IMG/VR virus record: IMGVR_UViG_3300008120_000018
Span: 43,195-107,194 of that record
DNA: 64,000 bases
Strand: one strand, 5' to 3'
Source: a virus
Shown here: positions 1,688 through 62,001 of the stretch, in pieces
Layout: each line of letters opens with the position of its first letter
How positions within the stretch are numbered: the stretch's first letter is position 1
The notes under the pieces: generated by a model
Told to the model about the DNA's origin: nothing
The model's input: only the letters and a program-made list of their open reading frames with translations
Database searches by the model: none
Translations under genes and position numbers: made by a program

Positions 1688-1738
1688 AACATCTCCTGTT
1701 GATAGATTAAATCTTGATTACTGATAGCTGATAACCAA

Positions 1739-2056
1739 TTACTCTTCTATTTTTTTAAAGATAGCATTTTCTTCCTTGATGCTTTCTTCTGTTTTTTGTG
1801 CAACAACTTTTATTGCTTGCATCAAAGAATCTGAAATGTTTCTGTAAGCTTTGTCGTATTCTTTTATAACGATCCAACGACCATAATTACAGTTTTCAGG
1901 GTTTGTTACATATCTGACTCTAAAGAATAAATAATGGCCATTGGTGTAATTAATTAATGCCGAGAAATAATAAGAAGAATCCCAAAACTCACATTCTTCT
2001 TTGGTGCATTTAAATACTTTTAAGACCTGGTTCTGAAACTCTTCAAATGATAGCAT
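1739..2056 (-). CDS. Unknown 105-aa protein, tandem copy 2
   Basis: Tandem paralogue of the gene at 1370-1687, same length and same N-terminus (MLSFEEFQNQVLKVF). The central part is diverged (Tyr- and Phe-rich), and the C-terminal helix EESIKEENAIFKKIEE is charged. The upstream leader, including AGGAGATGTT before the ATG, is nearly identical between copies, so the duplication unit is leader plus gene. A third copy of the first 30 or so nt of this gene survives at the start of the broken gene to the right. Function unknown. Confidence 0.7.
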   Translation of the reverse strand: MLSFEEFQNQVLKVFKCTKEECEFWDSSYYFSALINYTNGHYLFFRVRYVTNPENCNYGRWIVIKEYDKAYRNISDSLMQAIKVVAQKTEESIKEENAIFKKIEE

Positions 2057-2890: not shown

Positions 2891-2903
2891 CAAGGAAAAA
2901 GGG

Positions 2904-3764: not shown

Positions 3765-3850
3765 TTCCTTCTCTCTGTAGTAGAACGATATATACGCCTC
3801 TCTATTAATAGAGAGGCGTATATCAGCCGACCTCCGATAAGGTCGGCTAA
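3765..3850 (-). promoter_or_regulatory. Leader with two hairpins, copy B
   Basis: Read leftward: a GCCGACC/GGTCGGC hairpin just after the 232-aa gene (likely its terminator), a second perfect hairpin of ATACGCCTCTCT and AGAGAGGCGTAT, then CGTATATATCG and ACTACAGAGAGAAGGAA before the ATG. It is homologous to the leader at 2803-2890, so promoter and ribosome site were duplicated with the 5' end of the gene. Confidence 0.6.
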
Positions 3851-3853
3851 TTA

Positions 3854-4552
3854 CTAGTCCATAGGATTGGTGCTTGCGGCAGGGGTCGTCGCCGCCCACT
3901 CTGCATCGTTATTTGCAGCAGCGACAACAGCTTGTGCAGCTTGTGTTGCTTGTAGCCGAGCAGTGCGCTCTACTTGCCGGCGCTTCTGCCGAGCATTATT
4001 CTGAGACCGCGCCTTTGAGAACCAGTTATCCATCTCATTCTTTGAATCAAAGCCTCGGCCGCTAATGGAAGTATGATTGACCTCCATGCCTACCAAGGCC
4101 ATAGCGTAAAAGACAATGCTATTGACTTCCTCACCGTTTACGGTGAGTTCGGATAAGATGGGCTCCCCGACCTCGAAGAGAACGGATAAGCCCGCTCCTA
4201 CCATGCCTTCAGCGCCATCAGAGATAATCTCAAATTGGTCCGGTGTTACCCGGACTTCAACTGTCATATCAACAAGCTGGTCGTTAGCAATTGGGAAACC
4301 CTGGCGGGTAATATTGTTAGTCCGCGTGACTGTGCCTACTAGCCGGACGGTTCCGTCGGAGCATTCTTTGTTCCAAAAGCGTTCTGGAAGGAACTTAGTT
4401 GTAAACGCTATTGAGAAAAGCAGTTGCGCTTTGGATTCCTGTGGTTTAGGTTCTGCTACCGCTGCTTTGAATGCTTCTATAGGGGATAGAGTAGTAGTGG
4501 TTTTGGCGGTGGTTCCTGCGGTGGTTTTGGCGGTGCGTTGTGTTGTTCTCAT
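3854..4552 (-). CDS. Unknown 232-aa protein
   Basis: A leftward frame of 232 aa. The N-terminus is Thr-, Lys- and Arg-rich and low-complexity (TTQRTAKTTAGTTAKTTTT). The middle looks like a beta-rich domain (TVRLVGTVTRTNN, MTVEVRVTPDQFEII, SVLFEVGEPIL). The C-terminal 50 residues are a charged Ala/Gln/Arg helix (KARSQNNARQKRRQVERTARLQATQAAQA) likely to form a coiled coil. Composition resembles the phage core, unlike the AT-rich genes to its left. No family recognised; a nucleic-acid-binding or virion role is possible from the basic tails but is inference only. Confidence 0.65.
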   Translation of the reverse strand: MRTTQRTAKTTAGTTAKTTTTLSPIEAFKAAVAEPKPQESKAQLLFSIAFTTKFLPERFWNKECSDGTVRLVGTVTRTNNITRQGFPIANDQLVDMTVEVRVTPDQFEIISDGAEGMVGAGLSVLFEVGEPILSELTVNGEEVNSIVFYAMALVGMEVNHTSISGRGFDSKNEMDNWFSKARSQNNARQKRRQVERTARLQATQAAQAVVAAANNDAEWAATTPAASTNPMD

Positions 4553-5056: not shown

Positions 5057-8000
5057 TTAGAAATCAGGATGATCTTCAGCTTCAGCGAGTTCTAGTTTAT
5101 AGTCGCCGAGGTCGAGATGTACAACAGTTGCGATTTCCAACAGCTGCTTAAGTTGAGGGTTCCTGACATAGTTAGAGAGTTGGAACTCACTTACCATGTC
5201 GAACACACTAACGGGGACGATATCATCAGCGCCATAACTGGCTGCGTCATCCTGGGTCATAGGAACCACAGGATCATGGCCCTGGCCAGTACGACGGAAG
5301 GCTCCGTATATGGCAGATGACATGATAAGGCTCTCGCGAGCGAAGTTGCCCCGTTCGAGAGCACCGTATGTGAGAGTACGGGCGCGGGCCTTTATAAGCT
5401 GGTAGATTACCGCGGGCTCCTTAGCCAGCTTAGCGGGCATAAGGTCAGCCATAGCCCGAGCAGGAGGTACACCACCTCCTTGGCGATCCGTATCCAAAAG
5501 CTTAGTGGAATTGGCAGAGTAGTATAACCCGTCCTGCGACGACTTATACATAGGTACGCCAGCAGCCCAGGCGCGGGCTGCTTGCACTAAAGTAGCCATG
5601 AAGATCTTAGCCTCAGGGGTATAGCCCCCGAGACCCATGCTTTCATAGACGAAACGCCAGGCGATAACACACGCTTTAAGTGCGTCGGTATCGACGCCGC
5701 TAGCACGGTACATACTATCCCAGGTTTGGAAGGCAAGTGCAGAACAGATACCATAGCCAACACCTACGGCTACTTTATAATGCGTGTGCACCTCAGCAGC
5801 GTCGCTGACGTACTTATCGACAGCGATAGCAGTAGCTACAGGCTTATCCCACTTAGTGAGGGATTTCTTGCCTATCTTATCTTCATAGCTCATGAAGGCG
5901 AAGAACGGCAGGTCATCTGCTTCGTAGCAGTAGAAGTAGCCGCCTATGCCCATGAGACTAGCATTGATAGTGAGGGCACTCTCAGCGTCGATACCGTATT
6001 TGTGAGCATTAATGCCGCCGCACTGGTCACCATCAGCATCGCCTTCGTTAACGGCGTGCCATAGGAGAGGGTTGACTGTGTAGTGTGCGACGAAGGCATC
6101 GGTAGTAGATAACTTAACGCGGCCGCATAGGACGAAGCCCATAGGAGTCCGTTGTATCCCAATAACCTGACCTTCTTCGATGCCAAGCATACGTACCATA
6201 GGGCAATTGGGGTGCATGAGAATTACAGGCACGCCATCAGCGCTATGGAGCAAGGGGCTATAGCTGGTCTTGACCTTACCAACGACCACATCGCCAGCGC
6301 GGGCCATACTCTTCATAATGCCTTTGGATTTAACCATGGTGTTACACCATGTGCGTAAACCGCGGCTGACCTTAGCGGTCATGGAGTAGATTTTACTATC
6401 CAAACCGCTTTGGTCTTCAATTCCTACATCAGTAACGTAGGCCAACAGTGTCAAGAGGTCTAGCATAATACCAGTAGCGGAGGCGCCAGAGAAGGTACCG
6501 AACGCGCTTAGGGCCTTACCATTGATATGAAGAGAGACTTCATTACCGTTATTCTGAGCAACGATATCCACTCCATCGGGGTAGACGGTAGCAAAACGAT
6601 CTAGCAGATTGCGGTCACTGCCAGGGGTGCTATCAGAAACATAGTTGTTAACTACGCCGATAATGTCCCGTAGATGGTCACGCCCCTCAGTAGTGCTGAT
6701 GTTAATACAAGCATCACATTCCTTAGATGTGATCATACTAACTATGGACATGACGTTATCGTATTTAACCTCCTCCATGAGCGCTTCGCCCCAACCGCGG
6801 TTCTGTAGAGCCACAATACCTATCTGCTCCATAGTCATTTTGGAGAATGCTACGGACTCACGAGGAGTGGCTATCTCGATATCGTATGGCAGATAGCCGT
6901 ATATAACCTCTACTGTTTCTTCGATACGGACGCTGGTATCGTCGATGTCGATTACCTTGATGTCATCGTTAGTTACTACGGAGGAGATGGAATCCCACAG
7001 GTCGCGGGCCATATCAAAGGAGATGACCTCTTTAACACTGGCTCCAGTATCATCAGTAGCCAGTTTGGCTTGAGCCCACTCAGTAAAGGTATTACTCTTA
7101 GTCATAAGATCAATAACTTCACCAGTATCATCGATGGTGAGAAGCGCACCTTCGGGAGTATAGGTGCAGCCCCCCTTCTCAATGGCGAACATCTCTATGA
7201 GCGCGGGCCATCCCTTGGTGGTCTCGTTATTTAGGATGATATCCCAGGGTTGAGATAGTCCCTCAACGTCATAGGGAAGAGTGGTAAGCTTCTTACCTAG
7301 ACCGCGGAGTTTGAGGGCTTGGTCGCGCCCCACCATCTCGGTCTCAAGTCGAATAGTGACGCTATCAGCGCGGCCCTCGACGCCATTACGCGTGACAGTC
7401 CCGCCTATTACGCGGATGTCCTGCGCGAATGTCTCGTTCTTCACTATGCAGTACTTGCCCTGCATAATGCTAATGATAGAGTTACCAGGAGCATAAACCT
7501 GGCCCTTCGCTTTCTCTATCTTGCCTTCGATGACTTCCATGAGTTTACTCGTGGGGTCATCTAGATCAGCAGCCATAAGAGCGCGAACTGAGCTAGGAAT
7601 ACGGAGTACGTGAAACTCCTTAGTAATGGTCTTCGGTACGGTGTATTCGAACTCAAGGTCGCGGCGTATAGCAGCAACACCACTGCCAAAGCCAAAGCGG
7701 CTATTGGTGAATGCGGTGCGTAGATAGAGGCCACCACCACAACTATAGTTACCATCACCTAAATCAACGCGAAGTAGACTATCACGACGATCTATAATCT
7801 CAGCACGAGTGTATTTACCCGAGCTAGGCGGACGGTTGTACACCTTAGTGGGCTTGCTAAAATCATGGATGGAGTATATCTTACTATCCTTAAGTCCGAG
7901 GAACATGGCCTTGGCACCCTTACCTACAGCGATCCATTTTGCATTGTATTTATCAGGTGCTGCTATGACATTGGCTTTGAGCGACAATTCAAGATCGCTG

Positions 8001-10153
8001 GGTGCGAGGCCAACGTTCTCCACTTGCAGGAAGGGGAAGGCCTTATCCCAAGGCTTGAACGCTACAGGACGGGACATACAGCGATTAATCTCAAATAGAG
8101 ATTGACCCTCTTTAGGCTGAGCGCCGTAGTTGATGTCCTCGCGCCACAGGTTAGTTACCTCATTGAGGATAGCACGCGCACCAGTGGCGTTATACGCTAC
8201 CTTCATACAGAGCGCCACAAGGGCTACACGACCACTGTAGTCTTTGCCTCCGACTTTAACGAGTTCATTAGCGATGCGACTCTGACGACCATCATTGACG
8301 CTACCTGTACTAAAGTTGAAAGTAGTGCTGCGGTTATTACCTTTGATAACCACACAGGGGCCCTCAACACTAACAGTACGATGCTGCTTGACACATAGAC
8401 AGCCTACAAGAGCGGCTAAATCGTCACCAGACCACGTGGCTAACTTAGTGAGGAAGTGCTCACTATACATGCTAACTAAGCATTCGGTCTTAGTAGTATA
8501 GGTATGCTTGTCGTCTTCATAGGGAATAGACTTAGTTACACCTAAGTTAATGACCTTAGGATTCATTTTAGAATCCGTGGTGTAAACAACCCGATGGTCT
8601 AGAAGCGCAAGGAACTTCTTACACATACGGTTGTAACCAGATACGACATAGAGAATCGGACCTTCAGGCAGAAGGTCGAAGTTATTAGCCCCAAACAAGC
8701 GGGTTAACTCTTTACGAGCTGCTGTGATGCGCGCCTCCTGCTTAGGAGACACGACTCCACCGAGAGTACTAGGGTCAGGAATTAACATCTCGATAATGCT
8801 CTTCATGGTAGTGCTAGTGTTGGTGGTATTGTTAGAGGAGCTATCACTCTCTAACCCCTTAGTAGGGGCTCCTATGTTAGAGAGCGGGTGGGTAGGAGTT
8901 ACTGCTGCGGGCGCCGCACCAATAAGACCATCAATTGCTTGAATGGTTAGCGCAACAGCATTATCGTTGTTGACACTATTGTTAAAGACAAATTCCCAGT
9001 CTAATAACGTATTAGTGTCATCATATCCAACGGCTTCAGCATATTCGCCATAGGTTTTATAATCGAGTACGCGATCATCGAGACCTACGACTTCACGACA
9101 AATCGCAGGATCTAAACTATCTACTACATCCATCCATATATCATCAGGACCAGGTGCCCCGCTTTCTACAAACGCGGTCATGAGGTAGTGAGTGCATAAG
9201 AGGCGGGCCACTAATGCCGGGTCGTACATAAGCAGAGCTGCTTCGTATTCGTCGTTCTCGTGTTCAGTACCTTCGTAGTAAGATTTAGTGTCATGCCATT
9301 GAGCCGAGCCCGCGCCAATAGCGGCCTCAGACACCAGAGCTATATCTAGGTCTTCAGTAAGACCTAGAGCTTGGCAGTGGTGGACAAGCTCGTGAGTTAT
9401 CGCGTATATATCTTCGAATGAAGGTACAGTAACGACATTGTCACAATAAGACGCTATGTCCCCTTGTACAAAGGTCACACCGCATAGTTTGCCTACGATT
9501 CTCATGCGGCAAGCCAGTACATCACTTGGTAATTCTGGTACTACAACGCTCATACAGCGTTTAACGCGTGCTGCTTTATCAGTAGCTTTAGCAGCTTTAG
9601 TTATCGCTAAAACGGCTTTAGCGTTTTTAGTTTTGTACTTCTTGCCTACACACGTGCGGCCGTTGCCGCGGTAGTTTACGCGGCCTTGGTCGAGGGCAGC
9701 GATAATACTATCAGCAGCATTATTTACGGTAGCAACGGCTTTAGCGCCGGTGCTAATAGAACGCGAGGGACGCGCAAATACTGCGCTGACAGCGCGCAGT
9801 ATAGGTTTGGCCTTACGTTGTCGTAAGACAAGTTTGTCTACGACGTTACGGTTACGTAATACGGGTTTGCGGGCGGCTGAAGCTGCGGCAGCTGCGGCAC
9901 GACGTAGCGCACGTCGTGCTGATTTTACAACGCAGGGACGTTGACTTTGAGGTAGAGAGCGGATGGGGCGGCCGGCTGACGCTATACGACGAGAGCGACG
10001 GCGTACTACGCGATTAGCGCGACGGCTCGCTATCTGCTGAGCGCGGCGACCAGGGCCTACACGTCGTGTAGTAGGAGCACCTGCGATGATAGCGACGCTG
10101 ATAGAGGCTACGAGAATATTGGATTGAAAGACGATAGAGTTGATGGTACTCAT
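5057..10153 (-). CDS. RNA-polymerase-like protein with HExxH domain, 1698 aa
   Basis: A single leftward frame. Residues 1-25 contain a hydrophobic stretch; about 28-200 is very rich in Arg, Ala and Lys, as in DNA-binding or propeptide segments. HELVHH at 254-259 with a Glu-rich EGTEHENDEYEA near 294-305 is a zincin metallopeptidase signature. Near the C-terminus, NPLLWHAVNEGDADGDQ (Asp 1372, 1374, 1376) aligns with the beta-prime active site phrase HPLVCTAFNADFDGDQ of RNA polymerases and is preceded by IGIQRTP, like the RAPTLHR element. About 90 residues later comes YKVAVGVGYGICSAL. These fit a single-chain two-barrel polymerase related to the YonO/crAss-like phage enzymes (family knowledge, recalled). 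It probably transcribes phage genes; catalysis is inferred. It is preceded by a hairpin/TAGTGG unit at 10154. An alternative is a polymerase-derived structural protein. Confidence 0.7.
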   Translation of the reverse strand: MSTINSIVFQSNILVASISVAIIAGAPTTRRVGPGRRAQQIASRRANRVVRRRSRRIASAGRPIRSLPQSQRPCVVKSARRALRRAAAAAASAARKPVLRNRNVVDKLVLRQRKAKPILRAVSAVFARPSRSISTGAKAVATVNNAADSIIAALDQGRVNYRGNGRTCVGKKYKTKNAKAVLAITKAAKATDKAARVKRCMSVVVPELPSDVLACRMRIVGKLCGVTFVQGDIASYCDNVVTVPSFEDIYAITHELVHHCQALGLTEDLDIALVSEAAIGAGSAQWHDTKSYYEGTEHENDEYEAALLMYDPALVARLLCTHYLMTAFVESGAPGPDDIWMDVVDSLDPAICREVVGLDDRVLDYKTYGEYAEAVGYDDTNTLLDWEFVFNNSVNNDNAVALTIQAIDGLIGAAPAAVTPTHPLSNIGAPTKGLESDSSSNNTTNTSTTMKSIIEMLIPDPSTLGGVVSPKQEARITAARKELTRLFGANNFDLLPEGPILYVVSGYNRMCKKFLALLDHRVVYTTDSKMNPKVINLGVTKSIPYEDDKHTYTTKTECLVSMYSEHFLTKLATWSGDDLAALVGCLCVKQHRTVSVEGPCVVIKGNNRSTTFNFSTGSVNDGRQSRIANELVKVGGKDYSGRVALVALCMKVAYNATGARAILNEVTNLWREDINYGAQPKEGQSLFEINRCMSRPVAFKPWDKAFPFLQVENVGLAPSDLELSLKANVIAAPDKYNAKWIAVGKGAKAMFLGLKDSKIYSIHDFSKPTKVYNRPPSSGKYTRAEIIDRRDSLLRVDLGDGNYSCGGGLYLRTAFTNSRFGFGSGVAAIRRDLEFEYTVPKTITKEFHVLRIPSSVRALMAADLDDPTSKLMEVIEGKIEKAKGQVYAPGNSIISIMQGKYCIVKNETFAQDIRVIGGTVTRNGVEGRADSVTIRLETEMVGRDQALKLRGLGKKLTTLPYDVEGLSQPWDIILNNETTKGWPALIEMFAIEKGGCTYTPEGALLTIDDTGEVIDLMTKSNTFTEWAQAKLATDDTGASVKEVISFDMARDLWDSISSVVTNDDIKVIDIDDTSVRIEETVEVIYGYLPYDIEIATPRESVAFSKMTMEQIGIVALQNRGWGEALMEEVKYDNVMSIVSMITSKECDACINISTTEGRDHLRDIIGVVNNYVSDSTPGSDRNLLDRFATVYPDGVDIVAQNNGNEVSLHINGKALSAFGTFSGASATGIMLDLLTLLAYVTDVGIEDQSGLDSKIYSMTAKVSRGLRTWCNTMVKSKGIMKSMARAGDVVVGKVKTSYSPLLHSADGVPVILMHPNCPMVRMLGIEEGQVIGIQRTPMGFVLCGRVKLSTTDAFVAHYTVNPLLWHAVNEGDADGDQCGGINAHKYGIDAESALTINASLMGIGGYFYCYEADDLPFFAFMSYEDKIGKKSLTKWDKPVATAIAVDKYVSDAAEVHTHYKVAVGVGYGICSALAFQTWDSMYRASGVDTDALKACVIAWRFVYESMGLGGYTPEAKIFMATLVQAARAWAAGVPMYKSSQDGLYYSANSTKLLDTDRQGGGVPPARAMADLMPAKLAKEPAVIYQLIKARARTLTYGALERGNFARESLIMSSAIYGAFRRTGQGHDPVVPMTQDDAASYGADDIVPVSVFDMVSEFQLSNYVRNPQLKQLLEIATVVHLDLGDYKLELAEAEDHPDF

Positions 10154-20491: not shown

Positions 20492-20741
20492 TTTACTAGC
20501 TCTAGTACGCCTACTGAGTCGAGCTCATCTTACATGGGCCGGCCCGTATCTCACAGTAGACTATGAGGGAGTGATAATCCGCGTAGGTCAGGGGGAGTTG
20601 AGTATAGATACCAGTAATCATATGATGATTAACTGCAATCACAAGGAGGATAGTAGACCAGATGTTTCCAGCGTGCAGGATAGGAGATATGGTGAGGAGC
20701 ATATGCCCCAGGATACCCGACGGGCCTTTCTACACAGGTAG
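20466..20741 (+). CDS. Small unknown protein upstream of the PAAR gene
   Basis: Three consecutive ATGs at 20460-20468; the third is given as start, though any could serve. About 91 aa with a hydrophobic N-terminus (LIRFLSSLLALVRLLSRA) and then a beta-like segment (YLTVDYEGVIIRVGQGELSI, INCNHKED). It overlaps the previous gene by about 26 nt and the PAAR gene by 80 nt, so its C-terminus may not be real and the gene is less certain than its neighbours. It is included because it fills a coding-like gap. Confidence 0.4.
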   Translation: MKLIRFLSSLLALVRLLSRAHLTWAGPYLTVDYEGVIIRVGQGELSIDTSNHMMINCNHKEDSRPDVSSVQDRRYGEEHMPQDTRRAFLHR

Positions 20742-20919
20742 TCCTGATACTATGATTAATGGTAGACCCGCCATACGAATAGGGGACATGTCAGTGCCGG
20801 GCCCTGCTATCACTGGTAGCCCGCGCACATTTATTAATGGCATACCCGCCGTGAGTATTATAGATAACGTCTTCTGTGGCGTTATAATAACAGGTAGCGA
20901 GGACACCTTCATAGACTAA
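20662..20919 (+). CDS. PAAR-domain spike-tip protein
   Basis: 85 aa, ATG preceded by AAGGAGG. The whole protein is PAAR repeats: ACRIGDMVRSICPRI, FYTGSPDTMINGRPAIRIGD, AITGSPRTFINGIPAVSIID, IITGSEDTF. PAAR proteins form the sharp metal-binding cone at the tip of contractile-tail spikes and type VI secretion tubes. It would cap the spike encoded at 48051. Its stop overlaps the next start (TAATG). Confidence 0.85.
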   Translation: MFPACRIGDMVRSICPRIPDGPFYTGSPDTMINGRPAIRIGDMSVPGPAITGSPRTFINGIPAVSIIDNVFCGVIITGSEDTFID

Positions 20920-22314: not shown

Positions 22315-22583
22315 CACTCTCAGACTACAAACTCACATACGAGATAACATCACTACCGACTATAATATTCGCTGGGATGACCGCGGCGGATGAGCCATTT
22401 CACTTCACTCGCTTTGAGGTGCCCCCCATTAATGGTCCTATCGAGTGCCGCTTTTCACTATTCGATAAGTCAGGTAATTTAATAGAGTTATCTAATCAAT
22501 ATGTGCACAGTACTACGCTAGTGGCTACCTGCAATATAGTGCCACTGCGTATGATAGAGAAGCTAGTTAAACCAGATCCATAG
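22308..22583 (+). CDS. Unknown small beta-rich protein, 91 aa
   Basis: ATG overlaps the end of the previous frame. The protein resembles a single beta-sandwich domain (YKLTYEITSLPTIIFAG, FTRFEVPPINGPIECRFSLF). Its last 17 nt overlap the end of the convergent 3562-aa gene, so the two opposing messages share DNA. Function unknown. Confidence 0.5.
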   Translation: MVTLSDYKLTYEITSLPTIIFAGMTAADEPFHFTRFEVPPINGPIECRFSLFDKSGNLIELSNQYVHSTTLVATCNIVPLRMIEKLVKPDP

Positions 22584-25500
22584 AGTAACTCTCACTCTCA
22601 TCTCGATAGGCCATACTATTAGGACGATCTACTGTTAGGTCGCTCATGTAGAGGGCGTCATAGGTGTCGTATTCATCACCATTGAATATAGTTTGTACGA
22701 AGAACTCAACAGGGGAGCCCGTGTCATCTACGACCTCGGTTTCAGCATTATCCTCTCGTTCCATGCGAGCTCGATTCATACCTTCTTGAGTAGCGCGTAT
22801 ACCAGCACTAACAGCGTCTAGAGCCGCGGGGGCTACACTACGCTGCATACTGACCTCTAACCCACGATGAAGTAACTTATTTACGAAGCCTGCTGATACG
22901 AGACTCAATGCCCCCGTGATGACGTTGCTAGCTACATTACGCAGGCCCGCGAATGGGTCAGAGTCTATTGTGGGCGCCTTACCGAGTGTCTTCTCTACGA
23001 ATGGGTTGATAATATAGCGGCCTGCGAGTTGAGCTGTTGCGCCAAAGGCTATCTCCTGTGCTAGTAGCATACCGACACCAATTGTATAGTCCTCGTGTAG
23101 TTGACCTGCTAGGCGGCCCTTGAATCCCATACTCATCAGAGTACCTGCAGCGAAACGTCCCATCTGGTTACCTGCTGGGGCGCTTACGTAGGCCATAGCG
23201 CCTAGCATATTACCCATAGTCTGCTGCATTGCCTCGGGGCGGGCTCCGCCACTACTAATCATATCTCCTGCCAGTGCCATTAGGGGGAATAGAAGTACAT
23301 CCATTAGATTACCGGCAGTATTGTTAAGAATAGGTAGATCATCTGCTACGCGTAAGAGGGGGCGGTCTGGTCGCGGGCGAGGGTCTAGTGGGTCTACATC
23401 AGGGGGTGAGCCGGCCAGTAGATAGTCGCGCCGACGAGCTGATAACTCCTTAGCTCTATCTGGGGCGACCCCCATATCCTGTAGCAGTTTTATATAGCGC
23501 GTATCGACGTCACGGCTCTCATAATCTCGTAGCTCCTCTACTAGTCTATCGGCTGTATCTACCTGCTGACCTAGTGCTGTAGCGCGAACATAAGTAACTA
23601 ATCGACTAGTGGCTGTCTCATCTGTGAGAACTGTCTTCTGAATAAATTCTGCTATCTCCTTATCAGCTGGGCTAGGGGTACCGCTATTGAGTAACACACT
23701 AAAGATATCTGCTATTTCATAGCGCTTACCATCAGCGTGAGTGAAGGTATCCATAAGAGACTCGAGGGCCCGTGTTACCTGCTCAGGCTCGTTTATCTTC
23801 CCGGCTGATACAGCCTGTAACAGTGATCTAACTAGCGGACTAGCTCCTGAGCCAGTAAGGTCACCAGCGGTAGTAATCAGATCCTGACCGAGTACATCCT
23901 CTAGTTGTCCTCCGTATAGTGTGGAGCGGGTACTATCATTAATAGCGAAGCGCAGTAGTTTACTGCCATCAGTATTAGCCCAGAGTGATGCACTCTCCCT
24001 ACTACGTAGGAAGTTCATAGCTAATATACGCTTAGTATCCGTACCCATATCCTGGAAGCGCTTATCTCCTATTACATCACGAGTGAAGTTCTGGAACTCT
24101 TCTACTTCTATCTCCATCTCGGTGAGGCCATTAGTGATGCCGCCTGCTATGAGAGTATCTATCTGAGCGGCCCGCGCGGGCTCACTATTTATGTAGGTCT
24201 CTACACTCTCTGCTAGGCCTCTACCAGAGCTAATGGGGTTACCTGCCTTATCGGTTGGCATAGCCCGCTCGAAGGCGAATACAGCCGTCATACCTACTAG
24301 GTCCTGACGTAGTTGATAACTGGCTATGAGGGCGCGGCTATGAGTACCTATTTCATCTCCTCGCAGTACGCTCAATCGACGAGATAAATCTAACTGCTCA
24401 GTTTCTCCAATGGATAGCTTAGTCAGCAGATCATTAATCTTAGAGTCCTGGGCATCATTAGTAGCTGATGCCAGTAATTCTTTATGAGCCCCTATATACG
24501 CATCTAACTTGAATAGAGGAGTTATAGATGGTAGTAGTCTACTCATATCATCTACTACACGCTGGCGCTCCACATCATCGACAGCATCTACAAAGCGCTT
24601 ATGGTACTGCGATAAGTTCTCTAGGAACTCAGCACCCCCCATCTTAGGCTTAATAGCGTCCCGCAGCATTTGCTGTATCTCTTGTAGGAATGTGCCTACC
24701 TCGCCTACCTCTGTTCTACTCTGGCGGGCCAGTCTCTGTATATCCACTATCTTACTATCGGCCTCTAGGTTAACATCACTCGCGCTCATGCCTCCTGCCA
24801 TACCCTGATCGATTAGTATACGACGCATGTCATCCTGTAGGGCCGAGCTATTCTCTAGTGCGTGAGACACAGCCATGATGGGGGAGCGCTCGTATAGCAT
24901 ACCCACGGTAGTGTTATACGTCTTACCGAGGATTACACTACCTGCCTGGCCCAGTACCTTCTGCATCATATCGAATTGGCCGCCGCTCATGACACTACCA
25001 TCAGCGCGCTTCATGTACTTGCTGAGATTATCGCGGGCATTAACAGCAGTTAGTTTATGCAGGAAGTCATAGGCCTTCTCTTCCTGATCATTACCTGTAG
25101 CGCTCAGGATATCATGTAGACTAGCCCGCACGAATGGCCCCGTATCAGGGTTATTAACAAGATCGGTTAGTATGTTCTGATCCGTAGAGGTAGATAATCT
25201 ATTGACTATATCAACTGCACTATCAGTTCTGCTCTGCTGTATTAATTCTAATAAGGGCTCATGGGCCGGCTGTATACGCGCGTATACGTCCTCCATCATA
25301 CCGAAGAGACCGCGGGACTGTTCTACTAATACCAGGGCATGTTCTATACCTCGCTGTTCCAGCATACCCTTATCTAATTTCATATAGCCCGCTACCCAGC
25401 TATACACTGAGTCGGTATACTCATTCCAATTAGCATTAGTGGCTACCTGCTGTATAGTATCCAGTAGAGCACTGGCACGCATATCTAGGTCATTAGCTTG

Positions 25501-28500
25501 CTTCTCTAGAATGGTGCGCTTAGCGGGATCAGCAGCCTGAGATGCCATCTCCCGCCGCTCCTTAGCGCGTTCCAGCATATCATCACGCTGCAACTTCATC
25601 TGAGAGTAATTGAAGAATATAGCGCTGAAGGTATCCCCGTCGAAGTCCCCTAGGTTACTAGTTATAAAGCTGATGGGATTAAGTAGAGTCAACGACTTAT
25701 TACGAGTATCATCAAAGAAGTTAAAGCCACTGCCAGTTAGGTCCCGGTATATGTTATTGATACTATTGAGCGTATCTAAGCCGAACACCAGCTTATCGAG
25801 ATGGGTGTTCCCAGGAGGCGGGCTACGTTGAATCCAGGCTCTTGTTAACTCTAGCTCAGTGAAGAACATACTCATATCAGCCTGTAGAGTACTATTCATT
25901 ATGAGTAATGAATCGCGCGCCGCACGATTAGCCATTACTGTATCTAGTTCCACTGCATAGGCAGCGTTTGCATCACTTACCAGCTTCCTATACTGAGCTA
26001 TGAGAGCTACACCTCTATTATGTAAATCAGTGCCCCGCGGGCTCTTACCTTCTAAATACGTATCTACAGCAGAGGTCACGGCATTAATAGTTCTCTCTAG
26101 ACTATCTAGTCTAGTAGAGAATGTATTCAGCATCTCAGCACCATCCTTACCACGCGTATCGCTGAAGAAGGATAGGTCTATGGGATTCTTACGTATACGG
26201 CCCTGTAGTAGATCCAGGTTATCAAACCTATTACCTAATGCATTAGTGTCAATGTAGATCCGCATATTATCAGGTATGATAGAGCGGGACGGGCCCTGAC
26301 TACCTATCATGAGCCCAGAGATAATAACAGGTAAGTGACCCAGATCTCTATACTTATGAGTTTTAGCTCCAGGCAGAGATTCTAATATTGTTCCCATCTC
26401 GGCTTCACCTAGAGTAGATATTAGAGAATCCCCGCTACCGCTGAATTTCATGCTACTGAATCTATCCATCTCAACTTTAATTTCTATCTCTAGTTGAGCG
26501 TATTCAGCTGCCTGTGAATCAGGAGCCAGTTTTCTTATACCGGCTGCTTTGCTCTGGAAGTTCTTACTTTTATCTACTACTGTCTCTAGCCCATACATAC
26601 CCGCTATACTGAGACCCTCAGTTATAGCGTATATCTGCTGTTGTATTAACCTGCGACCAATTCTCTTATCACCTGACTGGCTAATAACAGACAGGTTATT
26701 CTTAAGATGGTCCCCTAATCTACTAAGTATCTCCTCTCGTGTCTGACTACCTCGCGTACCAAAGCGCTCCATAGTGGCCTCTGCTAGTACGGCGCCGCGC
26801 ACAGGTACATACCAGCTAGCGGCCCCTACACCAGTAGTACCTGTCACACCTATCTTATTACCAGTGATAGACTGCAGATATGCACTCGCCAGGTCATTAT
26901 AAACGCGGGCCTCATAAGTGTTATTGAGTTCCTGGAACCGAGTCAACTCCTGTATCTGGAAGTCACTGAGGCCCTCTAGTTCAACAGTAGTCCTCGAGCC
27001 AGACTCAATGGCCACCTTCTCGAAGATATCGCGTACTGCACTACCGGGGGCCAGCATAATCCACTTATCTACCGTAGCAGCGGCTATCTCATTCTCGTGG
27101 CTACCGAACTGGATACCTGCTATCCTCACGTCCTCAGGACTCAAGATAAATCCCCTATCCTTAATAGTTGTATTGAATACAACGTTATTCCCCTCTATAC
27201 GGAAGGAGGGGAACTCATAGGCTATACGACGAAGACCCTTCTGGCCCATTGACTGCACGGTAGCTTCAGTAGCCTCTACACCCAGTACCTTATCCCCTGC
27301 TAGACGCCAGCGAGACGCATGGGCATATACATCATTCTTCAGGACACGAAGTGACTGGCGCACTACATTACGCAGAGTATCTCTATCGGTCCCAGCAGGT
27401 TGCCCCATCCATGTAGCTATCTCATCAAGTATAGTATGAGTAACATTAGTAGTATCGAGGCCCGACCCTCTAGTATATGACACCATGTCAGTATCACTGG
27501 CACTCTCGAGTAGAGACAATGCAGTGTGGAACTGCCTGTATCGTTCGCGTAGATTAGTTATATCACTTAATGGGGCCCGCGCATCGTTATATGCTCCTAG
27601 TAGTATCTCTCCCAACGTAGAGTTAGCGTGGAAGTCCAGACTAGCCAGGTCATACATAGGGATATCATCCACCGCTATTTTATTGGGGTCTGCCCCTATG
27701 GCCATCTTCATGACGCCAAGGATAGCCCTACGCATACTATCAACACTACCATCACGCTTGAATTTATCCACGTTAGCCATGAAGGGACTAGATACTATAT
27801 GCTGCATTTCTAGTTGCGCAGTGTCCTTACTACTCAATGGCACCTTAGAGCTACTACCCATCACGGCATTATATAGCACTACATAGCGAGAGTAATTACT
27901 CAATCTATCGAGCATAACGGCCACGTTCTCCTGGCCTACGCTTATCTCATCTGCCTGCGTAACACCTGCTATAGCGCTCATAGCCGCATACGCATGACGA
28001 GATATACTATCGCTACCAGTCACTGGCGTAGTCTTGAGCTCTAGGGTATTATTAAGTGACATGAGCTGCATCATAATCTCTAGATTACCGGCTATAGCAG
28101 CACGCTCAAAGCCGCGACCCATAGCCCCAGTATCTACATAACCCCTGCGCGCTGCATCTGCTGCATCTACTATCAGACCTACCTTATTAGATAGTGCCCC
28201 GCTACTAGTTCCACTGCGCAGGGCCATCATTATCTCTGATATATCAATGGCCCCTAGAACAGGACTCTGTAGTCTATTAATAGCACCATCACCCCCGCGT
28301 ACTAGCTTCTTACCTATTTCGAGATGAGGGGGGCCATCTCCTAGTTTATCATTCCGCATAAGTTCCAGCATAGTAGACATATAGAGGTCACGATAGTAAT
28401 TACCGAGCCGCCCCTGCGCTGCCAACTGCGCTATCTCTATATGGACACTGTCTATATTAATATTGCTGCTATTACTAAAGAGACGCGAATCAGTTATGGA

Positions 28501-31500
28501 AAGGAGAGCGGCCGCTATCTGCTGATCATTCCGTTCTAGTACCCCCCGACGGAATAGCTCCCCGCCATTATAGGTAAGTAGAGTAGCCCCGTGGTTGAAT
28601 GCGTAGCTCTTCAGGTTAGTGGGGCTGATTATATACTGGATGTCCTCTATCTCGAGGGCACTATGATAGCCCCCCTGCTGTATAGTGGGGAACACCTCAC
28701 TACGCATAACGTCCTCGCTCAGGAACACAGGGACTATCTTAGCCAGACCGCGCTCTGCCTCTACCCTTCGAGAGCCACCCTCAAGTAGAGTGCGTAGGAA
28801 TTGTATCTGCACCTGCACCTCATTAGTAGCATCGCTACCAGTCAGCCTACTGACCTGTAGTAGCTGCTCAATAGCGTACTCGCCTCGTATACCAGCTGCG
28901 GCACTAGTAGCCATAGCGGCCCCCATATTAGGATTACGGGATGTACTCTCTATCTGGTCTAGGAATACACGCATCTCACTACGACTAGTGATAGCCTGCT
29001 TACGGCGCCCCTCTCTATCTAGTAGATAGTAGCGCTGCTCTCTCTCATCGAATACAATACGGTCATCGCTACTCACCAGTATATTATCGAATGTCCAATC
29101 CCGCCCTAGTAGACTAGCCTTACTACTCTTAGTAGCCTGATCTAGGAAGCCGCGTCTTACCCTATGTAGAGGGTTAGCATACGCGTAGTCACTATAGGCT
29201 CCCTCCAGTGCCATAATCATAACAGTAGGACGGGCCTGTCCAGAGCCTATCAATCCCCGCTCTCTACTAGCGAATAGCTGAGATTGCACTATAGTGGCGC
29301 GGAATAACTCGGCCAGTACGCTATCATCCTCAGTGGGTATATCCTCACTATCGATACCCAGGCGGTCGGCCAATTCATACCGTATAGCCTCTAATTCTAC
29401 AGCTGCCTCACTACTCATAAAGCGAGATATTCTACCACTGAATATAGCACCATAGCGATAGCTATCATCTACGATACTACTATCTAGTCCACGTGCCTCT
29501 AACCCGGCGCGCAGGTCAGCTAGGTATGCGTCCTGATACATGCTGCCCTGCAGTACATCTACATCGCTACCTCCGTAACGGGCTTGATACCTAACGGGGG
29601 TCAACTCAGGTATGACCCTACCGGTATCAGTGGGACTAACTAACTCCAGCACCCGGGTATAACCCTCGCTTATATCCATGAGCGGGCGCATACCAATCAC
29701 GTTCTTGAGACGCTGAGGCACCTGATCCGGCTTATTAGGATCAAAGAAGAACCGGAGTAGATTATCGCCGCGGGCATCGAACTCTGCTTCTAGCAGGGAG
29801 CGGTCTATGCCCAAATGGCTCACTGCCTTCATGTATTCACTCAGCTCATCTCGTCGTATGATATCTCCCACACCAGTACTGCGTATGATGGATAGGTCGA
29901 AGACCTCACTGGCAGTGGCACGGCGAGATAGAGGTAGCACATTATTATAACCAGTAAAGTACTGGCTCTCATCAGTAGCCGTAGGGCCTGCATTACCTTC
30001 AGCAACTCGTACAAAGAGAAAGTCATCGCCTACACCAAGATCAGATACCGGACCTACAGGCAGTGGGCTGGCAGTATAAGCAAAGGCACTCAGGTTACTA
30101 AAGGTAGTCTCATTAGCCTTAATACGACGTAGTGCGGCATTAACTATAGATATACCAGCGGGCTGCCTATCCTGACCAAAACCGTAGGCTAGTAAGCGAT
30201 TACTTGCTTGTGTAGAACCATAATTACGAGCCTGTGTAGGGGTAAGGAACGCGGCGAATGCACTATCATGTATCTCCTTTAACCTCTCGCGCGCATCAGT
30301 CTTATAGCGACTATCATTCTGGGATTCGATAAACTTGAATAACACATCAGCGAACATAGGGCCCTGATCCATAATCTCATATAGCTTATTAGCAGCAAGA
30401 TTAAGGGCCCCTCTGCGGTGTGCCTCTAGGTCTATTATGGGCTGGCCTCTTTCATCTGCAGACCGCGCATAGGTAAGAAATATGTTAGATAGTTCCTCGA
30501 AGGCCACTCTACGGCGGCTATCAATACGAGATATACCCGCTAGGTCTCGTATACGATCTAGATCGGGGTCACTAGAGTAAAACAAGGAGGTCAGGTTACT
30601 GAGGCCCTGCTGTACTCTACTAGTACCCTCGTCCGTGGTTAGGTCAAGACCACTCACGCCCAATAGCTTCTCGAAGAAGTTCATGGCACTCTGATACTGA
30701 GCGCCAGGGTCGCGCTGTACGGCTTGGGCAGCGCGTATATTATCAGGGCTATAGTACCTCTGGTACTCTATAAGTGGGGCCCGCACTAAACGAGTAGTCT
30801 CACTCTCTAACGCAATAGAGCTCATGAGACCCACTACTACATCCAGTGGATTAAGGCGCAGGCGTCTACGGGGATCCAGACCCACACCAAGACCATCACG
30901 TTCTATAGCCAGCTCCATACGCATTGTGCCAGTATTGAACAGCTCAGCTGACTCTATCTGACGACCCCCGCTTATATCTATGAAGGCGGCGGGCCCCTGT
31001 CCACTAGCGTTCTTATAGGCACCCCATCTATATACACGCTGAGTAGGTAGGCCCTTATTGAGCGTTAGAGTAGCGCCCTCTAGGTTAAGACCATCGTAGT
31101 CTCGCTGTACGCCTATGACCTCAGAGCCTACAGCCGCGTTAACTCTCTCTATTTCGTTGATTAGGTCCAGTATGGCTCCTCTATCTACTCTATTACCGTA
31201 CATAGACCTACGGTCCCGTTCACTATAATGAGTCTCACCTATTCGTTGTATTCCCAGGGAGCTCTGTAATTTATAGAAGGCCCGCGCGTATTCTCTATTC
31301 TCCTCATTACGCTCCTCATTAGAGAGACTGAGAGGGCTTGTACCCCCCACCCTATCGTAAATTATATTGATCTCCTGGTTAACGAATTGGCGGCTCAGGG
31401 GATCATCATTATCTGCCAGAGAATTAAGACCATAGTTACTAGATCCCTGGCTACCACCCAGGATATCGAAGGCCTGGCGATTGTTTATATTCTGCATGTC

Positions 31501-33255
31501 AGGCCCGGCCCCTTGATTTATGGCGTCATTCTCGTAGGTCGCCAGATATGCCTTAACGTGGCTGCGCGGTACTGCAGTCGGCTCTATATTACCGCTAGCT
31601 ATAGCTAATAGTTGTCGGGCCATACGCTGCTGGCCTTCGAGATCTCCACTATAGAAGCCATACGTGCTCAGCACGTTAGCCATATCACTAACATCAGTGC
31701 CCCGGCTCTCCTTAATCCAGCGGGCCACGTCATAATTAGATTGAGATAACTCAGCAGCTAGTTTCTGGTTGCTTAGTAGTAAGCGGCTCATAGGGTCCTG
31801 CACATCCTCTCGATAGGTATGTACATCTACTCCTATACGAGCGCGACCCTCTATAACCAAATCTAATACATTAGCCTGGAGCTTAGAGTATTCCTGCTCT
31901 CTGGCTTGCATGTATGCCTGGTAACCCGATAGTGTTCTCTCGTGCTCAGGATTCTCTCCCATCTCTCCCTTAAGCTGGCTTGCCATTAGGGTCTTATCGT
32001 GTTTGAGTAGGAACACCTGATTGAGTACCATATAGAGGCGGCCCGTCTTACCATCGATAGTAGGCCTATTAATGAGCTCACCTACATGGCGGCGTAGAGC
32101 AGTATTAATATCACCAGCACCGCCTATACTATCCTGCCCCGTGAATAGAACTCTATCGCCACCATCTAATCTATCCATAACATCACGAGCCTGTAGGTAT
32201 AACTTATCGGCCCGCGTTATGGTGTCAGGCAGTATACCCCTATCGGCATCCTGTATTTGGCTATAGGTCAGGTTAGTGCGTATAGTCCGCGTGAACTCTA
32301 CATTAGAGCCCGCCTGTTCTAGCGATTGTCCTAGTGGCCGCGTCACGTTCATCGTACCTATGAGAGCGGACCTATCACTAACGAAGAACTTAGGGTGATT
32401 ACGTCTATCAGCCCATTGGATATCTATATCTACATCAGTCCCGAAGCGGTCCCGTAGATAGGACAGCCGCTTATAAAACATAATGTTGGGGCCCAGGATA
32501 TCATAATTCTTACGAGAGTCCCCATCAGTCTCAGATGGGGCAGCCATACGAACTACCACACGACCACCCTGGCCACTACCAGCTATCCTCTCTACAGCTT
32601 CACCCACCATATCTATAGCGCGCTCATTCTGGAACTGATAAATATCTATACGCAGTTCTCTCTCTGCTGTATCTACTAGCGCGGCAATAGGTAGTAAGCC
32701 GGGCCGTACATTATAACCATCATCAGATAGTAGATCCAACATGCTAGAACGATTCTCTAGTAGTAGGCGGCGTTCATCGTCTATGCCCTCTAGGTTAGAC
32801 CGCATAGTGAGCTGATCTCGCTGGGCCATCCAATTAAGCATATCATCAGTCTGGGTACGGGCAGGAGTAGCTGTACCCCCCATACCTGCTATGTATTCGA
32901 AGTACTCCTGACGAGCGGGGCCCTCTATACTATCCCATAGACTCGAGATAGCAGCTCGACTACTACTAGTATCAACTACCCTATCATAGAAGGCATCAGC
33001 TAGCACCATCTCCATAGAGGCGTCGGTACCAGGTGGTATAAAGTTAGGGTCCATTAATACTTCTAGAGGATTGTAGCCCTGTAATAATCTACTGCGCGTA
33101 TCCTCAGGAATACGGTAGAGGGCATTCCAACGAGCACTGTCATTAAATCGATTACTAGAGAATAGTGAGCTATTGATATCCATCAGTAGAGTACAAAACC
33201 TATTAAATAGAGCTATAGCTGAAAAACTGCCTACTTTAGCGGGCAGTGGCCTCAT
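22567..33255 (-). CDS. Giant 3562-aa protein: PLD-like N-terminus and RNA-polymerase-like DFDGD motif
   Basis: One open leftward frame of 10.7 kb. Near residues 200-320 there is a phospholipase-D-like half-domain: IDIYQFQNERAID, GRVVVRM, then HPKFFVSDRSALIGTMN (His287, Lys289, Asp294, Gly300, Asn303) and SNVE. A second weaker copy, KHDKTLMAS, lies at 418-426 with Asp replaced. Much of the middle is helical. At 2525-2545, LNPISFITSNLGDFDGDTF gives the DxDGD catalytic loop (Asp 2537, 2539, 2541) of RNA polymerases, followed about 200 residues later by SVILGKTYNTTVGML. The C-terminus (about 3260-3450) has Ala/Gly/Met-rich hydrophobic segments. By family knowledge this resembles crAss-like virion polymerases, or a tape measure carrying one. 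The start may instead be the Met at codon 26. A purely structural role remains possible. Confidence 0.7.
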   Translation of the reverse strand: MRPLPAKVGSFSAIALFNRFCTLLMDINSSLFSSNRFNDSARWNALYRIPEDTRSRLLQGYNPLEVLMDPNFIPPGTDASMEMVLADAFYDRVVDTSSSRAAISSLWDSIEGPARQEYFEYIAGMGGTATPARTQTDDMLNWMAQRDQLTMRSNLEGIDDERRLLLENRSSMLDLLSDDGYNVRPGLLPIAALVDTAERELRIDIYQFQNERAIDMVGEAVERIAGSGQGGRVVVRMAAPSETDGDSRKNYDILGPNIMFYKRLSYLRDRFGTDVDIDIQWADRRNHPKFFVSDRSALIGTMNVTRPLGQSLEQAGSNVEFTRTIRTNLTYSQIQDADRGILPDTITRADKLYLQARDVMDRLDGGDRVLFTGQDSIGGAGDINTALRRHVGELINRPTIDGKTGRLYMVLNQVFLLKHDKTLMASQLKGEMGENPEHERTLSGYQAYMQAREQEYSKLQANVLDLVIEGRARIGVDVHTYREDVQDPMSRLLLSNQKLAAELSQSNYDVARWIKESRGTDVSDMANVLSTYGFYSGDLEGQQRMARQLLAIASGNIEPTAVPRSHVKAYLATYENDAINQGAGPDMQNINNRQAFDILGGSQGSSNYGLNSLADNDDPLSRQFVNQEINIIYDRVGGTSPLSLSNEERNEENREYARAFYKLQSSLGIQRIGETHYSERDRRSMYGNRVDRGAILDLINEIERVNAAVGSEVIGVQRDYDGLNLEGATLTLNKGLPTQRVYRWGAYKNASGQGPAAFIDISGGRQIESAELFNTGTMRMELAIERDGLGVGLDPRRRLRLNPLDVVVGLMSSIALESETTRLVRAPLIEYQRYYSPDNIRAAQAVQRDPGAQYQSAMNFFEKLLGVSGLDLTTDEGTSRVQQGLSNLTSLFYSSDPDLDRIRDLAGISRIDSRRRVAFEELSNIFLTYARSADERGQPIIDLEAHRRGALNLAANKLYEIMDQGPMFADVLFKFIESQNDSRYKTDARERLKEIHDSAFAAFLTPTQARNYGSTQASNRLLAYGFGQDRQPAGISIVNAALRRIKANETTFSNLSAFAYTASPLPVGPVSDLGVGDDFLFVRVAEGNAGPTATDESQYFTGYNNVLPLSRRATASEVFDLSIIRSTGVGDIIRRDELSEYMKAVSHLGIDRSLLEAEFDARGDNLLRFFFDPNKPDQVPQRLKNVIGMRPLMDISEGYTRVLELVSPTDTGRVIPELTPVRYQARYGGSDVDVLQGSMYQDAYLADLRAGLEARGLDSSIVDDSYRYGAIFSGRISRFMSSEAAVELEAIRYELADRLGIDSEDIPTEDDSVLAELFRATIVQSQLFASRERGLIGSGQARPTVMIMALEGAYSDYAYANPLHRVRRGFLDQATKSSKASLLGRDWTFDNILVSSDDRIVFDEREQRYYLLDREGRRKQAITSRSEMRVFLDQIESTSRNPNMGAAMATSAAAGIRGEYAIEQLLQVSRLTGSDATNEVQVQIQFLRTLLEGGSRRVEAERGLAKIVPVFLSEDVMRSEVFPTIQQGGYHSALEIEDIQYIISPTNLKSYAFNHGATLLTYNGGELFRRGVLERNDQQIAAALLSITDSRLFSNSSNINIDSVHIEIAQLAAQGRLGNYYRDLYMSTMLELMRNDKLGDGPPHLEIGKKLVRGGDGAINRLQSPVLGAIDISEIMMALRSGTSSGALSNKVGLIVDAADAARRGYVDTGAMGRGFERAAIAGNLEIMMQLMSLNNTLELKTTPVTGSDSISRHAYAAMSAIAGVTQADEISVGQENVAVMLDRLSNYSRYVVLYNAVMGSSSKVPLSSKDTAQLEMQHIVSSPFMANVDKFKRDGSVDSMRRAILGVMKMAIGADPNKIAVDDIPMYDLASLDFHANSTLGEILLGAYNDARAPLSDITNLRERYRQFHTALSLLESASDTDMVSYTRGSGLDTTNVTHTILDEIATWMGQPAGTDRDTLRNVVRQSLRVLKNDVYAHASRWRLAGDKVLGVEATEATVQSMGQKGLRRIAYEFPSFRIEGNNVVFNTTIKDRGFILSPEDVRIAGIQFGSHENEIAAATVDKWIMLAPGSAVRDIFEKVAIESGSRTTVELEGLSDFQIQELTRFQELNNTYEARVYNDLASAYLQSITGNKIGVTGTTGVGAASWYVPVRGAVLAEATMERFGTRGSQTREEILSRLGDHLKNNLSVISQSGDKRIGRRLIQQQIYAITEGLSIAGMYGLETVVDKSKNFQSKAAGIRKLAPDSQAAEYAQLEIEIKVEMDRFSSMKFSGSGDSLISTLGEAEMGTILESLPGAKTHKYRDLGHLPVIISGLMIGSQGPSRSIIPDNMRIYIDTNALGNRFDNLDLLQGRIRKNPIDLSFFSDTRGKDGAEMLNTFSTRLDSLERTINAVTSAVDTYLEGKSPRGTDLHNRGVALIAQYRKLVSDANAAYAVELDTVMANRAARDSLLIMNSTLQADMSMFFTELELTRAWIQRSPPPGNTHLDKLVFGLDTLNSINNIYRDLTGSGFNFFDDTRNKSLTLLNPISFITSNLGDFDGDTFSAIFFNYSQMKLQRDDMLERAKERREMASQAADPAKRTILEKQANDLDMRASALLDTIQQVATNANWNEYTDSVYSWVAGYMKLDKGMLEQRGIEHALVLVEQSRGLFGMMEDVYARIQPAHEPLLELIQQSRTDSAVDIVNRLSTSTDQNILTDLVNNPDTGPFVRASLHDILSATGNDQEEKAYDFLHKLTAVNARDNLSKYMKRADGSVMSGGQFDMMQKVLGQAGSVILGKTYNTTVGMLYERSPIMAVSHALENSSALQDDMRRILIDQGMAGGMSASDVNLEADSKIVDIQRLARQSRTEVGEVGTFLQEIQQMLRDAIKPKMGGAEFLENLSQYHKRFVDAVDDVERQRVVDDMSRLLPSITPLFKLDAYIGAHKELLASATNDAQDSKINDLLTKLSIGETEQLDLSRRLSVLRGDEIGTHSRALIASYQLRQDLVGMTAVFAFERAMPTDKAGNPISSGRGLAESVETYINSEPARAAQIDTLIAGGITNGLTEMEIEVEEFQNFTRDVIGDKRFQDMGTDTKRILAMNFLRSRESASLWANTDGSKLLRFAINDSTRSTLYGGQLEDVLGQDLITTAGDLTGSGASPLVRSLLQAVSAGKINEPEQVTRALESLMDTFTHADGKRYEIADIFSVLLNSGTPSPADKEIAEFIQKTVLTDETATSRLVTYVRATALGQQVDTADRLVEELRDYESRDVDTRYIKLLQDMGVAPDRAKELSARRRDYLLAGSPPDVDPLDPRPRPDRPLLRVADDLPILNNTAGNLMDVLLFPLMALAGDMISSGGARPEAMQQTMGNMLGAMAYVSAPAGNQMGRFAAGTLMSMGFKGRLAGQLHEDYTIGVGMLLAQEIAFGATAQLAGRYIINPFVEKTLGKAPTIDSDPFAGLRNVASNVITGALSLVSAGFVNKLLHRGLEVSMQRSVAPAALDAVSAGIRATQEGMNRARMEREDNAETEVVDDTGSPVEFFVQTIFNGDEYDTYDALYMSDLTVDRPNSMAYRDESESYSMDLV

Positions 33256-61654: not shown

Positions 61655-61664
61655 TGTTATTACC

Positions 61665-61997: not shown

Positions 61998-62001
61998 TGT
62001 T

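Follow-up and report, generated by a model that had tools for sequence, protein, structure and literature searches.

Why would a phage of a cyanobacterium encode a single protein chain of 3562 amino acids (aa)? The question arises from a stretch of 64,000 nucleotides of viral DNA (IMG/VR record IMGVR_UViG_3300008120_000018, positions 43,195 to 107,194), referred to here as the window. The 107-kb source record is near Microcystis phage Ma-LMM01 (Fukuivirus), a cultured lytic phage that infects toxic, bloom-forming Microcystis, a cyanobacterium. The gene in question, located at 22567..33255 on the minus strand and beginning with ATG, corresponds to MaLMM01_gp080 (phrog_31006) and is called gp080 below. 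Its counterparts in nine phage records, representing seven distinct phages, are 95-99% identical and are annotated as hypothetical proteins; the sole PHROG match in a whole-protein search was its own family, of unknown function. A preliminary description of the window, which did not state the strand, had read this frame as a virion-packaged RNA polymerase with a nuclease- or lipase-like head. The frame is real, and we find it marginally probable that gp080 is a giant enzyme with a PLD-type head and a diverged polymerase core, carried in the virion and paired with a second polymerase, gp064.

The head of the chain is predicted with very little doubt to be a PLD-superfamily domain, as the preliminary description had suspected. 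The PLD-like domain spans residues ~170-640 (31336..32748; this and all later features of gp080 lie on the minus strand and are given in window coordinates) and is marked by Pfam PLDc/PLDc_2 and two HKD motifs. The first motif, HPKFFVSD...GTMN at residues 287-303 (32347..32397), starts with HPKFFVSD at residue 287 and ends with GTMN at 300-303, as had been reported; its H, K, G, and N were invariant in eight of eight aligned N-terminal segments of the family. The second, HVKAYLATYE (566-575)...GSSN (604-607) at 31435..31560, had invariant H, K, S, and N in the same eight segments, and the core of each motif (H, K, and the closing Asn) was kept throughout. At E up to 1, Pfam PLDc_2 matched seven of the eight homologous segments (best E 6.2e-8) and PLDc matched six; the window's own gp080, searched alone, matched just PLDc at 0.02, below the cut-off. 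Invariant columns made up 48 of the 348 in the PLD region of the eight-row alignment, the highest share of any region. The acid of the first motif was D in six of eight segments, E in homologue L215, and N in L216. A pattern search missed the second motif in L218 and L219, yet the H and K align there. Homologue L220, which stands outside the eight-row alignment, carries HSKSFAVLD...GSAN and a PLDc_2 match of 4.9e-5, below the cut-off, its HKD motifs being unaligned with the others. A PDB match to a virion nicking-joining enzyme (E 0.81) was very weak and was not counted as evidence. Like PLD superfamily (HKD) enzymes of the PLDc_2 kind, gp080 has two HKD motifs with GSxN; it is unlike them in that the acid of its second motif is not conserved and that, in this phage protein, the domain is joined to a polymerase-like core. 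The substrate may be lipid or nucleic acid.

Nine homologues of gp080 were found outside the Ma-LMM01 species group, in a Microcoleus phage and in uncultured contigs of up to 252 kb. The first distant ones came from Microcoleus phage My-WqHQDG (25-27% identity in local alignments) and from metagenomic contigs L014 and L015. A search with an alignment of residues 2510-2890 returned 13 loci among 141 stretches; six of these loci were new and had diverged further (L213, on a 252-kb contig; L215; L216; L218; L219; and L220, on a 217-kb contig). The frames of these six measured 3722-4652 aa; those of L215 and L220 run off the locus at its 5' end, and that of L219 at its 3' end. In a joint alignment, identity of the nine homologues to gp080 ranged from 15.2% (L220) to 26.7% (L213); loci L206 and L207 were left out. 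No relative of gp080 was found in bacterial and archaeal genomes (two scans of genome contigs), and plasmids held no relative of the Microcoleus-phage homologue.

Among the 1112 columns filled in all ten sequences, 35 were invariant, including the four residues of D.DGD; one of the ten, P0002, has no N-terminal half, and this count covers only residues from about 1600 on. When P0002 was omitted, 66 of 2087 columns were invariant in the nine remaining rows: 2/28 in residues 1-169, 15/279 in 170-640 (PLD), 14/698 in 641-1599, 9/373 in 1600-2300, 26/401 in 2301-2920, and 0/308 in 2921-3562. Based on these shares, the PLD region and the stretch containing DxDGD (2301-2920) are the two most conserved large regions of the protein. 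The ratio of non-synonymous to synonymous substitution rates (dN/dS) between the window and Ma-LMM01 indicated purifying selection on gp080 (0.103 overall), with values of 0.153 for the PLD region, 0.133 for residues 641-1700, 0.056 for 1700-2900, and 0.080 for 2900-3562; residues 1700-2900 thus had the lowest value of the large regions.

At the centre of the second conserved region is GDFDGD, residues 2536-2541 (25633..25650), a candidate metal-binding catalytic loop of a double-psi beta-barrel (DPBB-A). The preliminary description had pointed to DFDGD at 2537-2541 with an NP just upstream; both are present, the NP ten residues before the loop. It had also named a lack of conservation in homologues as a refuting outcome, and the homologues speak in its favour. 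The D, D, G, and D were invariant in ten of ten sequences, the middle residue of D[FY]DGD was F or Y in all ten, and residues 2510-2560 contained no amino-acid change between the window and Ma-LMM01. A DFDGD in one sequence proves little, because 0.12 D.DGD motifs are expected from composition in a protein of this length; conservation carries the case. Before the loop lies RSPP, residues 2477-2480 (25816..25827), an R-x-x-P in which R2477 and P2480 were invariant in all ten, with an insertion between their equivalents in L220; known polymerases have R[NSRI]P at the corresponding place. In the family R..P is followed by GD[FY]DGD and this in turn by a hydrophobic strand (TFSAIFF; YTFIFS), an arrangement that resembles the loops of known two-barrel enzymes. 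The reference loops were gp96 (RNPVMG...VDFDGDTLVVL), gp64 (RRPDL...ADYDGDIGYVF), and YonO (RSPHL...FDNDGDKALII), and RpoC was also compared.

Other parts of a polymerase core can be proposed by analogy. The invariant residues of 2301-2920 include, besides R2477, P2480, and the loop residues D2537, D2539, G2540, and D2541, N2500 and L2535 as well as members of two downstream segments. ILGKTYN, residues 2775-2781 (24913..24933), with L2776, G2777, Y2780, and N2781 invariant in ten of ten, is a candidate bridge-helix segment; QQMLRDAIKPK, residues 2861-2871 (24643..24675), with Q2862, L2864, R2865, D2866, K2869, and K2871 invariant in ten of ten, is a candidate trigger-loop or post-bridge element. 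For the first barrel (DPBB-B), the candidate lysine loop, suggested by resemblance, is SSKVPLSSK with K1804 and K1810 (27826..27852). K1804 was present in nine of ten sequences and K1810, at its exact column, in six; K1989 was present in all ten with L220 poorly aligned, and it and its neighbours need caution because L220 aligns doubtfully upstream of about residue 2300. Judged by these motifs, the core of gp080 is probably a highly diverged two-barrel (DFDGD-type) RNA polymerase, and we refer to it as putative.

Several observations weigh against this assignment or against the packaging proposed with it. The gp080 family was compared in 18 profile comparisons with six known polymerase profiles (gp96, gp64, YonO, crAss, RpoB, and RpoC; the YonO profile was built from 21 of 61 sequences and the crAss profile from 48 of 78), and all 18 gave a probability (Prob) of 0.2 or less; a four-row gp080 profile reached at most 0.5. 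In none of the gp080 comparisons with known polymerases did the best stretch fall on the DxDGD loop, whereas the weak gp96-gp66, gp96-RpoC, and gp64-gp66 stretches do fall there. Neither PDB nor Pfam gave a polymerase match for gp080 (the whole-protein PDB matches were two, at E 1.6 and 2.1), and with E as high as 10 allowed, Pfam PF00562 and PF00623 did not match the record, whereas matches were obtained in 14 of 14 control genomes. The loop flanks were only weakly similar to those of known loops: in a shuffle test that excluded the five motif residues, the ten-sequence family gave p values of 0.039 against RpoC, 0.037 against gp66, and 0.057 against YonO; the others were 0.10 (gp96), 0.13 (TSP4), and 0.75 (gp64), and gp080 alone gave 0.07-0.80. 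AlphaFold models of residues 1685-2884 (1200 aa) and of homologue L213 (1192 aa, nine diverged rows) were mostly helical, with a mean predicted local distance difference test (pLDDT) of 35.2 and 43.6, respectively. A conserved block at residues ~1175-1555 (window ~28590-29735, minus strand; e.g. QRLKN..G.R and P.NLKS), lying after the PLD domain and before the polymerase-like core, has no assigned role. The gene and the head-tail genes of the window are on different strands, and no proteome of these virions was found in the openly licensed PubMed Central (PMC) literature. Finally, a transcriptome of Ma-LMM01 was reported to contain SigA-like promoters only, with all phases dependent on the host sigma-70 (PMC5780444), and a close relative, MaMV-DH01, was stated to be without RNA polymerase (PMC9927357). 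These two statements do not exclude enzymes without detectable similarity.

The RNA polymerase of the preliminary description stands as a motif (R..P...GD[FY]DGD in ten of ten) and falls short of a confident fold or a profile link. Of 13 pairs of known polymerase families, one stood out (gp96 vs gp64, Prob 43.4, E 2.4e-4) and the next reached 3.0; the method that gives no hit for gp080 also misses 12 of these 13. The gp064 and gp080 profiles had their best stretch on the DxDGD loop in six of six pairings, at Prob 0.2-0.3. In the flank test, 7 of 15 known pairs fell below p 0.02 (one of these, gp96-TSP4, within a family) and YonO pairs ranged from 0.07 to 0.33; by these p values gp080 resembles known enzymes no more than YonO does. 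The first AlphaFold alignment had six rows, three of them near-identical to the query, and predated the six new homologues; the alignment for L213 was made without P0002 and with just the C-terminal part of L220. Both models count neither for nor against a polymerase or the double-psi barrels for which the preliminary description had asked, because their confidence is too low.

The same observations could be explained by a PLD-bearing entry or structural protein that is not a polymerase, in which DxDGD serves a structural purpose or a different metal-dependent one, leaving gp064 as the sole polymerase of the phage. Of the alternatives considered here this one survives best, and we regard it as rather unlikely. 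It draws on the lack of any profile, PDB, or Pfam link, the absence of a best stretch on the loop, the partial conservation of the first-barrel lysines, and the mostly helical models, low as their confidence is. It has to contend with an invariant acidic triad and R..P in polymerase order, followed by a hydrophobic strand, and with the finding that known polymerase families mostly fail to find each other likewise (Prob no higher than 3 for 12 of the 13).

The second giant gene of the window, an RNA polymerase candidate of the MaLMM01_gp064 family (phrog_30979), lies at 5057..10153 on the minus strand and encodes 1698 aa. In a six-frame scan of Ma-LMM01 (four pieces, frames of at least 60 aa), D.DGD was found in two proteins only, gp080 and gp064. 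The motif stretch of gp064 reads VPVILMHPNCPMVRMLGIEEGQVIGIQRTP...NEGDADGDQ, and its catalytic barrel, VPVILMHP...QRTP...GDADGD, was placed at 6026..6232 (minus) by alignment to P23-45 gp96. A candidate DPBB-B lysine loop, LKLRGLGKK, lies at 7289..7315 (minus); its K.RGLG.K was invariant in three of three aligned sequences, and a pattern search did not find it in gp064-type loci L221-L226 (from three contigs). Every gp064 relative read had GD[ATSG]DGD, with R-T-P or R-I-P as R-x-P. An hhalign comparison of the gp064 family with gp96 gave Prob 49.7 and E 1.7e-4 over 77 columns, DFDGD included, when L224 (from contig G003) was the master, spanning gp96 710-788; with the window protein P0005 as master it gave Prob 15.2 and E 1.7e-3 over 37 columns before the loop, spanning gp96 710-744. 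Reversed controls gave E 0.43 and 0.76, and the L224-master score was about that of gp96 against gp64, the two polymerases of P23-45. None of the remaining five reference profiles was matched (Prob did not exceed 0.6 in 10 of 12 comparisons), and the gp064 A7 profile found no PDB polymerase by hmmsearch. We predict with good confidence that gp064 is a two-barrel RNA polymerase; as a polymerase candidate it is better supported by profile than gp080.

Relatives of gp064 were found in 17 viral loci of the Microcystis type. My-WqHQDG has a 3410-aa relative (25.8% identity over 278 aa, E 2e-13), and the contig of L015 has a frame of 3253-3260 aa. Genes of the gp064 type co-occur with gp080 in the window, in the seven Microcystis phages, in My-WqHQDG, in the L015 contig, and in three of the six contigs bearing the new gp080 relatives (G003, G005, and G006); the remaining three contigs, which may be fragments, gave no gp064 match. 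The Microcoleus-phage relative, P0006 (L041 322-10554), carries an inserted NADAR domain (Pfam 3.3e-20) toward its C-terminus, at residues 2963-3094. In Ma-LMM01, gp064 adjoins the early cluster, the early genes being gp054-gp063 (PMC5780444). Between gp064 and gp063-gp054 there are 6.7 perfect 42-bp repeats (43271-43551; L013 8272-8552). The array was considered as a landmark of early transcription and set aside, Tandem Repeats Finder having detected none at the corresponding place in the window.

Is gp080 carried in the virion? The phage is contractile-tailed, as had been described: genes for a tail sheath, a baseplate, and a Mu-like portal protein lie rightward of gp080 on the plus strand, the portal gene being two small genes away. 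The hydrophobic segments that the preliminary description placed near the C-terminus came down to a single clear stretch in a Kyte-Doolittle scan, residues 3317-3336 (23248..23307), and a similar C-terminal segment was present in five of five family members scanned, the window's own included (the scan took five of ten sequences). By analogy with known virion polymerases, packaging of gp080 has about an even chance. Which of gp080 and gp064 would sit in the virion, and in what order they would act, is likewise argued from analogy, and packaging may be a property of gp064. Exchanged roles, with gp064 as the virion polymerase and gp080 acting elsewhere, seem unlikely to us. In their favour, gp064 has a strongly basic head (49 R+K vs 6 D+E in 220 residues) and a zincin-like HExxH (HELVHH, residues 254-258; 9380..9394, minus), as would be expected of a DNA-bound internal protein processed during maturation; gp064 itself has no Pfam hit, and the Microcoleus-phage homologue has HELFHY with a sub-threshold Pfam Peptidase_M78. 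In addition, gp064 is not among the early genes named in PMC5780444. That gp064 adjoins the early cluster and not the head-tail genes speaks against exchanged roles, as do the nearness of gp080 to the portal gene and its membrane-type C-terminus; none of these points is decisive.

The closest model for a packaged gp080 is the virion RNA polymerase of Thermus phage P23-45, formed by the N-terminal part of the tape measure protein gp96. This giant virion protein was recognised as a polymerase from its conserved DFDGD alone, and it makes pre-early transcripts, including that for a second polymerase; the same source notes that many viral genomes encode two RNA polymerases and that many polymerase families share little beyond the DxDxD region (PMC10770324). 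Like gp080, gp96 is a giant single chain with a conserved DFDGD, an upstream R-x-P (R..P in gp080), no sequence match to other polymerases, a membrane domain elsewhere in the chain, and a second polymerase in the genome (PMC10770324). They differ in that gp080 has its loop at residue 2537 of 3562, a PLD head, a contractile tail, and a cyanobacterial host; gp080 is unmatched to gp96 by profile, while the gp064 family matches it; and the tape-measure role is one shown for gp96, not for gp080. Two other enzymes bear comparison. YonO, from Bacillus phage SPbeta, is a two-barrel RNA polymerase with DNDGD that was reported to be single-chain (PMC5467207); unlike gp080, it has 839 aa and no giant fusion. 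The crAss-like phage phi14:2 has in gp66 a large virion enzyme, single-chain and two-barrel, whose DxDxD loop reads DFDID; it differs from gp080 in having no sequence match to it. The virion of phi14:2 is of the podovirus type, and we know of no PLD head in its gp66.

On this model, gp080 would be a single chain of PLD head, two-barrel core up to about residue 2950, and hydrophobic segments at the end. A few copies would be held in the virion and would enter the cell together with the DNA. During ejection the C-terminal segments might lodge in the cell envelope, while the HKD domain might assist at the membrane or have lipid or nucleic acid as its substrate. The core would then start transcription of the incoming DNA, before or beside the host enzyme, and gp080 and gp064 would be one virion and one non-virion enzyme, a pairing known from P23-45 and phiKZ-like phages. 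A wider claim, which we put forward tentatively and hold at less than even, is that a broad group of tailed phages, ranging from those of Microcystis to uncultured ones of 252 kb, ejects a chain of the 400-kDa class in which an HKD entry head is joined to a new, separately diverged lineage of two-barrel polymerase, paired with gp064. If this is true, early transcription in these cyanophages would not be driven purely by host SigA, contrary to the published view, and a PLD-polymerase fusion kept in distant phages would couple DNA entry to transcription in a new way. One or two phage polymerases would also bear on how the three temporal classes of expression arise, a matter left open in PMC5780444. 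The preliminary description considered such a protein not to have been described in a contractile phage, and the openly licensed PMC literature agrees: no paper naming gp080 or gp064 as a polymerase was found there, supplementary files, e.g. Supplementary Data 4 of PMC10770324 (a viral polymerase survey), being outside the search.

The precedent of P23-45, where a polymerase is fused to the tape measure (PMC10770324), raises the further suggestion that gp080 doubles as the tape measure of a contractile tail, and the window's tail genes on the plus strand include no frame above 1100 aa. We consider this improbable: the gene is on the opposite strand, outside the tail genes and near the portal gene; family lengths run from 3562 to more than 4600 aa, partly through insertions inside the core; and there are other tape-measure candidates, namely a 1095-aa protein at 52392-55679 and gp120 of Ma-LMM01 (2898 aa). 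The gp120 gene (L021 32718-41414) follows the terminase, and its product, which had no Pfam match, may be a tape measure or an ejection protein; hydrophobic stretches and, near the N-terminus, degenerate HKD-like HSKLELIT and HYNKHLF were seen in it by eye. An EF-hand loop needs Gly at the position after DxDGD. A chance match, to which the 0.12 motifs expected from composition lend something, or an EF-hand-type calcium loop as the source of DFDGD is very improbable: all four D.DGD residues were invariant in ten of ten sequences, and the EF-hand reading was rejected on the next position, which is T, N, S, P, or Q, never Gly, in all ten.

Other genes of the window were noted in passing. A small PAAR-like repeat protein, recognised by eye at 20662-20919 (plus strand), is possibly the spike tip of the contractile tail. 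Among the structural genes, a 625-aa protein at 40458-42335 (plus) has a sub-threshold chitin-binding-type module (CBM_5_12, E 2e-5). A 737-aa protein at 57449-59662 (plus) carries short direct repeats, YCPGVLPxRPxKIIEVNQSAV, at its C-terminus. The product of 2904-3899 (minus) has, by eye, the look of a formylglycine-generating (SUMF1-type) enzyme. Runs of short genes at 60831-62791 (minus) and 1370-2056 (minus) appeared by eye to be paralogous, and two of the 'MLSFEEFQNQVLKVF' kind were among them.

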